This document shows, one piece after another, positions 15,523-26,377 of a stretch of 64,000 bases of DNA (the first letter of the stretch is position 1; every line of letters begins with the position of its first letter). Position numbers and translations under genes: made by a program. Below the pieces are notes generated by a model, which saw only the letters and a list, made by a program, of their open reading frames with translations, did no database searches and was not told the DNA's origin. The DNA is from a virus: positions 169,887 to 233,886 of IMG/VR virus record IMGVR_UViG_3300042515_001753; one strand, given 5' to 3'.

Positions 15523-15529
15523 TATTTAT
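15523..15529 (-). promoter_or_regulatory. T4-type late promoter
   Basis: ATAAATA overlapping the stop codon of the 102-residue gene, 28 bp before the giant-fibre ATG. Confidence 0.6.
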
Positions 15530-15834
15530 GAAGATAAGTCCTGCCGCAAAAACTCATAACCTTCATCTGGAAGGTCTTGGGGGTTTTCTAGGTCCATATC
15601 AAAAAGTAATGGGTGTGCTTCCTCGTCTATAAGATAGAATGAGTTTTTAAATAAATCATCTGGTTCAAATGCACGATACTTATCTGCCGTTCTACAGAGG
15701 TCTTCATCGTATAAGTGCCCATCAGGTAATTCATCGAAGGTAAATGGAATCTCGTTGATGAAGTACATTTTCACAATCATACTTCCGTTATTATACCAAC
15801 AATATGACTGACTTATTTTATACTTGAAAGACAT
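15526..15834 (-). CDS. hypothetical protein, 102 aa
   Basis: A soluble, acidic protein rich in Asp, Tyr and Phe (e.g. PDGHLYDEDLCRTADKYRAF). No family is recognised. It lies between the HNH endonuclease and the giant fibre, with a late-promoter motif overlapping the HNH stop (15855-15862), so it may be made late. Confidence 0.5.
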   Translation of the reverse strand: MSFKYKISQSYCWYNNGSMIVKMYFINEIPFTFDELPDGHLYDEDLCRTADKYRAFEPDDLFKNSFYLIDEEAHPLLFDMDLENPQDLPDEGYEFLRQDLSS

Positions 15835-15854
15835 TTGAGTATCTCAATATCTTA

Positions 15855-15862
15855 TATTTATT
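15855..15862 (-). promoter_or_regulatory. candidate late promoter
   Basis: AATAAATA on the minus strand, overlapping the HNH stop codon and 21 bp before the ATG at 15834. Confidence 0.5.
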
Positions 15863-16571
15863 TTAACCATTTACGAATAGAATTATCACTAACTCCATAT
15901 TTTTTACCTACAGCAAGATAAGAACTTTCTTTTACTTCTTGTAATAATTGTTCTTTAGAAGGTCTTTCAACTTTTCTTTGGGATTTTGAATAGCAACTAT
16001 TACAAAGACCAGTTTTGCAGTTTGTTTTCAATTCAACCCCACAAGAAGAACATTTATGAATTTTTTTGGTTAGTATTGTTTGGATTTTATTTTTTATTGT
16101 TTGTGAGTTTTTATTTTTCTTATTTTTACCACGATATGTTGGAGTTTTAGCGTGACAATTTGGGCATAAGATTTTTAAATTTTCTAATATATTGTTATAA
16201 TGGTCTCCATCAATATGATCTAATTCTAAAGGTATTGGTTCTTCTAACCATTCACTCAATCCGCAGCATTCACATCTATGATTCTTTAATCCCTCTATAA
16301 TTAATCTTTTTCGCAATTTGTTAGAATTGTACTCATAATTCTTAACAAGGATTTCACTTAATGGTGTTGTATTAAACTTATGAGTTTTTCCCTTTAGATG
16401 TCCTTGACCTGTAAAATGTGAAGTGTCTATTCCATAAAGTTTTTCAAATTTTTTAAATACTCTATAGTTTCCACCTCTTGGAGATAATCCAAGTTTTGTA
16501 AGTGCTTGTGCTATGGAATAACTTTCTTCTACTGCTTTTTTAAATTCTTCTATGCTATATGAATGTCTCAT
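15858..16571 (-). CDS. free-standing HNH homing-type endonuclease
   Basis: A 237-residue protein in four parts: an N-terminal DNA-reading segment (SIAQALTKLGLSPRGGNYRVF); the HNH core with C100/C103, LELDHIDGD (D118, H119), N129-N131 and C136/C139 (CPNCH); a second zinc knuckle (C174, C177, C190, C193); and a C-terminal helix-turn-helix (YLAVGKKYGVSDNSIRKWLK). This layout fits mobile HNH nickases. It is 47 bp downstream of the intron-bearing tRNA and its ATG abuts a hairpin that contains a late promoter. Inference: it spreads the neighbouring intron/tRNA region. Confidence 0.85.
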   Translation of the reverse strand: MRHSYSIEEFKKAVEESYSIAQALTKLGLSPRGGNYRVFKKFEKLYGIDTSHFTGQGHLKGKTHKFNTTPLSEILVKNYEYNSNKLRKRLIIEGLKNHRCECCGLSEWLEEPIPLELDHIDGDHYNNILENLKILCPNCHAKTPTYRGKNKKNKNSQTIKNKIQTILTKKIHKCSSCGVELKTNCKTGLCNSCYSKSQRKVERPSKEQLLQEVKESSYLAVGKKYGVSDNSIRKWLK

Positions 16572-16614
16572 ACTGGTAAACTTATTGTATAGTTATTTAT
16601 ATAAGTTTACCAGT
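16572..16614 (-). promoter_or_regulatory. 13-bp inverted repeat with a late promoter in its loop (HNH leader)
   Basis: Perfect arms at 16572-16584 and 16602-16614 (ACTGGTAAACTTA and its complement) enclose a 17-nt loop. On the minus strand the loop begins TATAAATA (16594-16601), an exact T4 late promoter, and the 3' arm ends at the base before the HNH ATG. Read-through RNA would fold and hide the ribosome site. RNA started at the late promoter (around 16588) lacks the 5' arm and stays open. Confidence 0.8.
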
Positions 16615-16617
16615 TCA

Positions 16618-16888
16618 TACCCGTGAGTGGATTCGAACCACCGCTTGAGAGATTTTCTTACCACTATAGTTTTCACTACCCTTTCGGTTTGTGGTCTGGA
16701 CTATACCTTCATCATACCTTTCGGTTTAGATGTTCCCCGTCTAGTCTCTACACCTTCATCTTACGATGCTTGGCTCGGTATTGCCATTTTACAGGTTTCA
16801 CCGAATTTGAGGAATTGCACTCATAAGGTTTCCCAAATGAGGCTCAATTTTCATAAGTCTCTTGCCTCTTCCGCTGGGCTACACGGGC
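16618..16888 (-). tRNA. tRNA with UAA anticodon, interrupted by a group I intron
   Basis: Exons are 16855-16888 (34 nt) and 16618-16656 (39 nt). Joined, they give exactly 73 nt: acceptor GCCCGTG/CACGGGT, discriminator A73, T8 A9, D arm GCCC/GGC, anticodon stem AGAGA/TCTCT, loop CTTAAAA, variable loop CAAGC and T arm GGTGG-TTCGAAT-CCACT. The intron splits the loop between U34 and A35, the same place as in cyanobacterial and plastid trnL(UAA). The anticodon UAA should read the Leu codon UUA, but the body has a 5-nt variable loop (class I) whereas bacterial tRNA-Leu is class II. CCA is not encoded. Confidence 0.85.
16657..16854 (-). ncRNA. group I (IC3-like) self-splicing intron, 198 nt, no ORF
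   Basis: Starts after a U (P1 U-G wobble with the GAG of ATTGAGCC) and ends in G. Conserved core elements are in order: ATTGAGCC, P2 CTCAT/ATGAG with a GGGAAACC cap, CAAATTCGGTGAAACC, GGCAATACCGAGCCAAGC (Q), GTAGAGACTAGACGG (R), CCGAAAGG (P8 GNRA loop), AAGGTATAGTCC (S), and two further GNRA hairpins near the 3' end. Most closely resembles the cyanobacterial/plastid trnL(UAA) intron (ATTGAGCC, GGAAACC, GGCAAT-CC-GAGCCAA blocks shared). Confidence 0.9.
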
Positions 16889-16902: not shown

Positions 16903-16931
16903 ATTATAACTCAAAGAGTCCTAATAGTCAA
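16903..16931 (-). promoter_or_regulatory. sigma70-type promoter for the intron-bearing tRNA
   Basis: TTGACT (16926-16931), an exact 17-bp spacer and TATAAT (16903-16908), tucked into the gap between two tRNA genes, about 15 bp before the split tRNA. Host RNA polymerase could use it early. Confidence 0.75.
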
Positions 16932-16932
16932 G

Positions 16933-17006
16933 TGCTCATTGTGGGAATCTAACCCACCTTCGGCGCTTTATGAGAACGCTGCATTCAAACAGATTGCTAA
17001 ATGAGC
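16933..17006 (-). tRNA. tRNA with CAU anticodon (Met or Ile2)
   Basis: Acceptor GCTCATT/AATGAGC pairs perfectly with discriminator A (16933). D stem GCA/TGC, anticodon stem GCGTT/AGCGC, loop CTCATAA with anticodon CAU, T stem GTGGG/CCCAC. The T loop is TTAGATT, departing from the usual TTCGAAT. It lacks the C1-A72 mismatch of initiator tRNA, so elongator Met or lysidine-modified Ile(AUA) are the options. Confidence 0.85.
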
Positions 17007-17036: not shown

Positions 17037-17123
17037 ACGAGTGCCTGGATTCGAACCAGGTCAAAGCCGCTAATCTGGCGGAAAGGCGTTATAAGTGCCC
17101 TCTGACTACCAAGTCTCACTCGC
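17037..17123 (-). tRNA. class II tRNA-like gene, anticodon uncertain (UAU if 7-nt loop)
   Basis: 87 nt with acceptor GCGAGTG/CACTCGT, a good T arm (CCTGG-TTCGAAT-CCAGG) and a long variable arm (CCGC-CAGATTA-GCGG) as in Leu/Ser/Tyr tRNAs. The anticodon arm is irregular: a 7-nt loop CTTATAA would give UAU but needs an A-C mismatch closing the stem, otherwise the loop has 9 nt. Position 8 is A instead of the near-universal T. It may be a diverged Leu-type tRNA or a decaying gene. Confidence 0.6.
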
Positions 17124-17125
17124 AT

Positions 17126-17569: not shown

Positions 17570-17598
17570 ATTATAGGGCATCTGGGGGCAGGTGTCAA
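17570..17598 (-). promoter_or_regulatory. consensus sigma70 promoter
   Basis: TTGACA (17593-17598), 17-bp spacer, TATAAT (17570-17575), both hexamers perfect. Drives the 61-residue and Phd-like genes leftward, possibly on into the tRNAs. Confidence 0.85.
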
Positions 17599-25714: not shown

Positions 25715-26377
25715 TTACTCTTCCTGAAAGACATGAGATCCAACATGACTAAGATGAATAGTTGTATCTAACCAAGACTTATATCCAACACTTGATGCTC
25801 TCTCAAAGAATGAAAAATCTTCCGGTAGAAAGTGCATATCTTTTTTCATTTCAAGAAAATAATGATAAGAATTATTATACTCTTTTTCTGTTACTGGATA
25901 GTTTGAGTTATTTAGAGTGGGGTAATACTTCAATTCTTCTCCATAGTGATTTTGAATGCTCTGAAAAACTTTTCTACGAATACAACAAAATCCAAAACCA
26001 ATATTTTCTATCTGAACTAGACTATCTTCTGCAACTGGTGGAGATGATATATTGTAGTTATATCTCAAAGGAATACTCTTCATCGGATATGCTCCACATA
26101 TAATCTCCTTATCAGATAAAATAAGATTCAATGCATCTTCTGATGCAAATCCAACATCAGCATCAATAAATAAAATCTTTTCATACTCAGTATTATTCAT
26201 AAAAAAATTAGCAATTCTAGATCTACCCTTTGTGATAAGACTTTCATTAGCAATAGTCAAAAATCCATGATCTATTGATTTAGTTCTCAAATCCTTCCCA
26301 AGATTAAACAGTCCCTTTACAGTTTTATCACTAACCATTCCACCATAACAAGGCATTGCAATTAAAACTGAGTTCAT
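25715..26377 (-). CDS. GT-A type glycosyltransferase
   Basis: The protein opens with a beta strand (NSVLIAMPCYGG), has the metal-binding motif ILFIDADVGF (DAD, about residue 75), ICGAYPMKS, and a C-terminal LPEDFSFFERASSVGYKSW acceptor-side motif, ending HLSHVGSH. This is the pattern of phage-encoded GT2/Anp1-like transferases. The ATG at 26377 is preferred over a TTG two codons upstream. Sugar and acceptor are unknown. Confidence 0.8.
   Translation of the reverse strand: MNSVLIAMPCYGGMVSDKTVKGLFNLGKDLRTKSIDHGFLTIANESLITKGRSRIANFFMNNTEYEKILFIDADVGFASEDALNLILSDKEIICGAYPMKSIPLRYNYNISSPPVAEDSLVQIENIGFGFCCIRRKVFQSIQNHYGEELKYYPTLNNSNYPVTEKEYNNSYHYFLEMKKDMHFLPEDFSFFERASSVGYKSWLDTTIHLSHVGSHVFQEE

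Follow-up and report, generated by a model that had tools for sequence, protein, structure and literature searches.

A free-standing HNH endonuclease gene in this phage genome is probably controlled by a timing switch of the I-TevI type, built from two promoters and one hairpin. On the sequence comparisons and folding models described below, this is the best explanation for the arrangement that we found. Early in infection, host RNA polymerase would start at the sigma-70 promoter of a tRNA-Leu gene and, meeting no terminator, would transcribe the intron-split tRNA and continue into the HNH gene. In this long RNA, whether or not the tRNA has been excised, a 14-bp hairpin before the AUG would bar the 30S subunit. 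Once made, the gp55/gp33 late machinery would initiate at about position 16588 from a promoter in the hairpin loop. The resulting RNA would lack the 5' arm of the hairpin, carry a 17-nt, nearly unstructured leader and be translated.

The window (the whole stretch of DNA analysed, 64 kb) is the final part of a 233,886-base viral record. Its relative S-SRM01 is a T4-like phage isolated on Synechococcus sp. KCZYC6. The relevant features, all on the minus strand, are as follows.

17570-17598 (minus): sigma-70-type promoter, TTGACA-17-TATAAT, 12/12 match, upstream of the stretch with the DUF7294 gene, the Phd-like gene and the tRNAs
16932-17006 (minus): tRNA-Met (CAU), by ARAGORN and Rfam tRNA (49 bits)
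16903-16931 (minus): sigma-70-type (early) promoter, TTGACT-17-TATAAT, 11/12 match, directly before tRNA-Leu
16855-16888 (minus): 5' exon of tRNA-Leu(UAA), by ARAGORN allowing introns and from the intronless S-SRM01 homologue
16657-16854 (minus): ORF-less group I intron, 198 nt, inserted after U34, by Rfam RF00028 and ARAGORN
16618-16656 (minus): 3' exon of tRNA-Leu(UAA) including the discriminator base, by ARAGORN allowing introns
16601-16614 (minus): 5' arm of the hairpin, ACTGGTAAACTTAT, which the predicted late RNA lacks
16594-16601 (minus): putative gp55-type late promoter, TATAAATA, with predicted +1 at 16588, from strand bias, spacing and T4 numbering
16586-16600 (minus): hairpin loop, 15 nt
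16572-16585 (minus): 3' arm of the hairpin, ATAAGTTTACCAGT, abutting the HNH ATG
15858-16571 (minus): HNH homing-type endonuclease, 237 aa, phrog_10822 (E 5.3e-56)
15855-15861 (minus): ATAAATA, putative native late promoter of the next gene, containing the HNH stop codon (15860-15858)
15828-15853 (minus): start-codon hairpin of the gp049-like gene, TAAGATAT...ATGTCTTA, its 5' arm spanning the predicted late +1
15526-15834 (minus): gp049-like late gene, phrog_4134, homologue of S-SRM01 gp049

Anatomy of the HNH leader and its surroundings

The hairpin is a perfect inverted repeat pairing at 14 of 14 positions (16614-16601 with 16585-16572, 15 nt apart), longer than any other perfect short-range inverted repeat in the window. 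It begins 3 nt past the tRNA-Leu discriminator base and ends at 16572, one base before the HNH ATG (16571-16569), which lies 46 nt after the tRNA. The original prediction had located the structure correctly at 16572-16614 and had rightly described it as a perfect repeat ending just before the HNH start, but gave it 13 bp rather than 14. It had also placed an exact late-promoter motif in the loop. TATAAATA is present, but its first T is the final base of the 5' arm and closes the stem, and only the remaining letters are in the loop.

By itself, TATAAATA is not enriched (4 occurrences in the window, with 6.3 expected). When its flanks were dinucleotide-shuffled with the motif held fixed, however, a strong stem enclosing it had p ~0.0007. 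The unusual thing is thus the enclosure of TATAAATA by a long stem that adjoins the ATG, and not the motif alone. The 70-nt leader was predicted to fold at -17.1 kcal/mol, compared with -6.45 +/- 2.05 kcal/mol for shuffled sequences (z = -5.2). Opening the start region was predicted to cost 17.9 kcal/mol in the spliced or tRNA-processed RNA as compared with 4.6 kcal/mol in the late RNA, so that a stable structure over the translation start is predicted in the long RNA only. Processed and unprocessed RNA were predicted to fold alike. A match of the hairpin to the Rfam family MIR7127 was far under the gathering score and was dismissed as chance.

Several properties of ATAAATA in these phages indicate that it behaves as a gp55-type late promoter. 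It is strongly biased toward the coding-rich strand (91:7 in S-SRM01 and 63:9 in the window's own genome), it stands before tail sheath, scaffold and baseplate genes, and the next ATG follows after a median of 22 to 23 nt, the spacing of 22 nt before the HNH gene being typical. Homologues of gp55 (75% identity) and gp33 (80% identity) are encoded in the same genome. The cyanophage late promoter has been given as NATAAATA (PMC2984593), and T4 late promoters are numbered from -13 (PMC2988020). If TATAAATA begins at -13, the +1 of the HNH late RNA falls at 16588, as the original prediction had foreseen, and the promoter is placed so that the predicted late RNA loses the 5' arm. There is no Shine-Dalgarno sequence in the HNH leader, so the hairpin does not sequester a consensus one as it does for I-TevI, I-TevII and I-TevIII. 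This lack is normal in these phages, since few of their late genes have Shine-Dalgarno-like cores (8/65 and 3/39).

As to early transcription, the sigma-70 site before tRNA-Leu is on the same strand as the HNH gene, and the TTGACT-17-TATAAT element recurs in S-SRM01 and in several IMG/VR relatives. A terminator scan found no terminator-like site between this promoter and the HNH gene. The early unit would thus be able to read into the HNH gene, and we infer this read-through as a prediction of the model. While an early tRNA promoter had been recognized in the original prediction, the intron, the absence of a Shine-Dalgarno sequence and the start hairpin of the next gene had been overlooked. 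The Rfam RF00028 match to the intron (16864-16675) scored 64.4 bits (E 1.4e-15). In S-SRM01, tRNA-Leu is uninterrupted and has no HNH gene behind it, both insertions being absent.

Some further observations concern the tRNA region. The intron-split tRNA-Leu(UAA) (16888-16618, minus strand) was missed by an ordinary tRNA search. Its variable region is short (5 nt) in both the window and S-SRM01, unlike that of canonical leucine tRNAs. Among the fetched loci, about 91 distinct sequences contain a 22-base core of this intron, in most cases within tRNA-Leu(UAA) and tRNA-Arg(UCU) genes. There is also a tRNA-like sequence at 17037-17124 of the window (minus strand) that was not called by ARAGORN; it has a long variable arm and, by eye, apparently the anticodon UAU, and it is conserved in S-SRM01.

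A phrog_10822 match and intact HNH residues identify the controlled gene as one for a homing-type nuclease. It is under purifying selection (dN/dS 0.10-0.15 in comparison with three relatives), and synonymous divergence among the relatives is considerable (dS 0.7-1.1). The gp049-like gene that follows seems to use a cousin of the trick in the HNH leader. Across 32 related sequences, with changes on both sides of the inner stem of its start hairpin, 85 of 96 cells were paired compared with at most 84 of 96 in shuffles, which is suggestive of covariation in this conserved hairpin, the sequences being related. The HNH cassette is inserted between the tRNA and the promoter of the gp049-like gene. 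In one relative, L146 (around 2950-2975), the tRNA is followed by GAACTGG joined directly to TTAAAATAAATA, so that the opening bases of the hairpin run straight into the last part of the HNH gene and the promoter of the next gene is restored; this is a probable scar of HNH cassette deletion.

Occurrence in other loci and competing explanations

At intron-tRNA loci, a promoter-enclosing stem with a score of at least 16.5 preceded 26 of the 27 genes that are not gp049-like (26 HNH-type genes and one tail fibre gene) and none of the 14 gp049-like genes. Early-minus-late differences in opening cost did not separate the two groups at these loci (7.4 kcal/mol for nuclease genes vs 6.3 kcal/mol for gp049-like genes), because the gp049-like gene has a start hairpin of its own. 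Genome-wide, in S-SRM01 and the window's own genome, stems scoring at least 20 were found at 5 of 24 nuclease genes but at 0 of 74 others, and opening-cost differences of at least 9 kcal/mol at 8/24 but 0/74, the nuclease classification having been made after the ranking was seen, with most of the genes so annotated by NCBI and several checked with Pfam. A rank test leaving out the discovery case gave p = 4e-4 overall and p = 0.07 for the window's own genome alone. For nuclease families that had not been noticed beforehand, classified by homology in IMG/VR loci, the result was marginal (2/10 vs 5/157, p = 0.058), and a strict-motif scan of phage S-CRM01 gave no general nuclease signal. Over all loci, stems at ATAAATA were enriched only about twofold relative to permuted motifs, a comparison that is confounded because the reverse complement counts the same sites.

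The clearest nuclease case is S-SRM01 gp207, a gene of the EndoVII type whose promoter is enclosed by a perfect stem of 20 bp. Its hairpin (NC_070963, about 126123-126177; 26123-26177 of locus L406) contains two overlapping copies of ATAAATA, and the ATG lies inside the 3' arm.

These data bear on the possibility that the hairpin serves RNA processing, either 3' trimming of tRNA-Leu or protection of the 5' end of the HNH mRNA, the promoter in the loop being a separate matter. Its onset 3 nt past the discriminator base and the like predicted folds of processed and unprocessed RNA would fit such a role. However, the 14 intron-bearing tRNA-Leu genes without an HNH gene have no such stem (the 0/14 above), and gp207 and gp225 of S-SRM01, along with other nuclease genes, have promoter-enclosing stems with no adjacent tRNA annotated or noted. 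Moreover, the stem runs right up to the ATG, and the promoter has the spacing of late genes. We consider a processing function unlikely, though it is the strongest of the competitors to the timing switch.

Behind introns of this kind, the same layout, with very different stem sequences, was found before B-type HNH genes, before unrelated C-type genes behind tRNA-Arg(UCU) and before E-type genes. This recurrence across families is, on sequence comparison, stronger evidence for the timing switch than covariation within a family. It also argues against a reading of the repeat as a DNA operator, in which the HNH protein or a phage repressor would bind the 14-bp arms and shut the late promoter, as in I-TevI. 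A long symmetric repeat that spans a promoter would be suitable for this, and I-TevI, and probably I-TevII and I-TevIII, repress themselves at sites overlapping their promoters (PMC2988022). At the loci compared here, however, arm sequences vary widely while pairing is kept. When the cognate tRNA insertion sites were used as stand-ins for the homing sites, the promoter region resembled them no more than shuffled sequences did, and an I-TevI-type operator that resembles the tRNA homing site was rejected on this basis. An operator appears somewhat less probable still than a processing signal.

Among close relatives, the hairpin is present at the same position in ten IMG/VR loci (L006-L012, L015, L016 and L297), whose HNH genes are 64-96% identical, and ATAAATA is in the loop in nine of the ten. 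The exception is L008, where ATAAATA and a large part of the stem have been lost with the HNH gene intact; L007, L010 and L012 have weakened stems, also with intact HNH genes. In L006, the HNH gene is 96% identical, but the tRNA-Leu before it is another one, whose intron has diverged; sequence similarity sets in again at the hairpin, which indicates that the hairpin and the HNH gene are the moving unit. In such comparisons, they behave as one cassette behind intron-bearing tRNA-Leu(UAA) genes. Within this close family, covariation is weak (double changes at 2 pairs, a score reached by 57 of 500 shuffles) and was not used as proof, as there are too few changes. A scan of IMG/VR with the 14-mer of one arm returned mostly unrelated contigs and was uninformative.

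The weak covariation and the loss of the motif in L008 are what one would expect of a functionless chance repeat, brought in by a recently acquired HNH cassette. On the other hand, all 16 nuclease representatives chosen by homology have a promoter-enclosing stem with p between 0.0007 and 0.058 in shuffles, most below 0.02, despite the dS of 0.7-1.1, and unrelated nuclease families share the stem. A combined p over the tested leaders is unusable, as these include cases found by the hairpin scan itself. We regard a chance origin as very improbable. Least credible is that the hairpin terminates the tRNA transcript as an intrinsic terminator. Its position directly after the tRNA might suggest this, but the idea was rejected, as the AU-rich stem has a 15-nt loop and is followed by ATGAGAC with no T run, and the terminator scan did not report the hairpin.

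Known systems and wider meaning

Hairpins formed with late promoters have been described for I-TevI, I-TevII, I-TevIII, T4 segB and Aeh1 mobE, and also for genes that do not encode nucleases, e and soc among them (PMC2988022, PMC3014915). The device is thus already known, including for HNH genes (Aeh1 mobE and I-TevIII) and in a tRNA operon (T4 segB). The I-TevI-style switch of the original prediction is well supported by our comparisons, through the early promoter, the missing terminator, the late motif, the predicted occlusion and release of the start and the conservation, but its novelty is not, and an HNH nuclease under this control is unsurprising, since such control had been described for the HNH genes just mentioned. 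The present case is set apart by its occurrence in cyanophages, by the lack of a Shine-Dalgarno sequence, by a promoter of which nearly all lies in the loop and by the partnership with an intron-split tRNA; of these, the cyanophage setting and the tRNA-intron partnership are new.

T4 segB resembles the present case as a free-standing homing nuclease gene in a phage tRNA region with a late promoter and a hairpin (PMC2988022), and hairpin control has been implicated for it (PMC3014915). It differs in encoding a GIY-YIG rather than an HNH nuclease and in belonging to a coliphage. To our knowledge, the tRNA next to segB has no group I intron. In Aeh1 mobE, an HNH start is likewise hidden by a hairpin in the read-through RNA, and reduced initiation has been demonstrated (PMC3014915). 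However, mobE is inserted in nrdA of an Aeromonas phage, its hairpin hides the ribosome binding site and the late consensus is different. In T4 I-TevI, the late motif similarly stands about 23 nt ahead of the ATG, and the late RNA also loses the 5' arm. Unlike the HNH gene, I-TevI is located inside the td intron, overlapping ribozyme sequence, and has a Shine-Dalgarno sequence, and its predicted fold puts the late promoter sequence in the stem region.

For the intron, the closest parallel is F-CphI and the psbA intron of cyanophage S-PM2, where a group I intron also stands beside a free-standing nuclease gene (PMC6083498). There, the nuclease is of the EndoVII type and the target is a protein gene, in contrast to an HNH nuclease and a tRNA gene here, for which we infer cleavage. 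The paper on that system makes no mention of a hairpin or a late promoter (PMC6083498). In our case, the layout of collaborative homing is present in the ORF-less 198-nt intron, the adjacent free-standing HNH gene and the lack of both in S-SRM01. Intron and nuclease probably spread together in this way, the nuclease being expected to cut intronless tRNA genes. The intron of cyanobacterial tRNA-Leu(UAA) genes is similar in that it interrupts the same gene in the anticodon loop, at a position that we take to be after U34, and has a group I fold. Here, in contrast, the host genes are phage tRNA genes, tRNA-Arg(UCU) is also interrupted after U34, and a nuclease gene stands behind. Our literature search found no account of phage tRNA group I introns with a nuclease gene behind them, although further papers may exist.

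A more general proposition is that HNH, EndoVII and GIY-YIG nucleases of T4-like cyanophages have repeatedly gained leaders that hide the start and carry a late promoter. Behind intron-split tRNAs, these would form interchangeable two-piece elements in which the intron is much alike and the family of the nuclease tends to depend on which tRNA is the target (A- and B-type HNH with tRNA-Leu(UAA), C-type with tRNA-Arg(UCU)). We put this forward tentatively, as something that may well be true but that we would not yet call probable. If it is true, the T4 way of silencing selfish nucleases until late in infection recurs across T4-like phages and nuclease families, and the rule extends to viruses of abundant cyanobacteria. 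Phage tRNA genes would also harbour a group I intron whose partner nucleases are separate from it and can be exchanged. The HNH gene lies outside the ribozyme, so that, unlike with I-TevI, early translation cannot perturb intron folding. The leaders that pair differently or lack the motif offer natural replicates for asking why a delay is selected where there is no overlap with a ribozyme.

HNH genes in other phages show possible variants of the arrangement. In S-CRM01 (NC_015569, about 145098-145137), an HNH gene behind an intronless tRNA-Leu is preceded by a 13-bp perfect stem with CTAAATA in its loop; the start annotated for this gene falls within the tRNA, which is probably too far upstream. 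In L047, L035, L051 and L065, which carry relatives of the HNH gene, arms such as GCTGTTC/GAACAGC surround A+T stretches of the TATTTATA type, and the ATG is located between or within the arms, perhaps representing the same switch with another late promoter.
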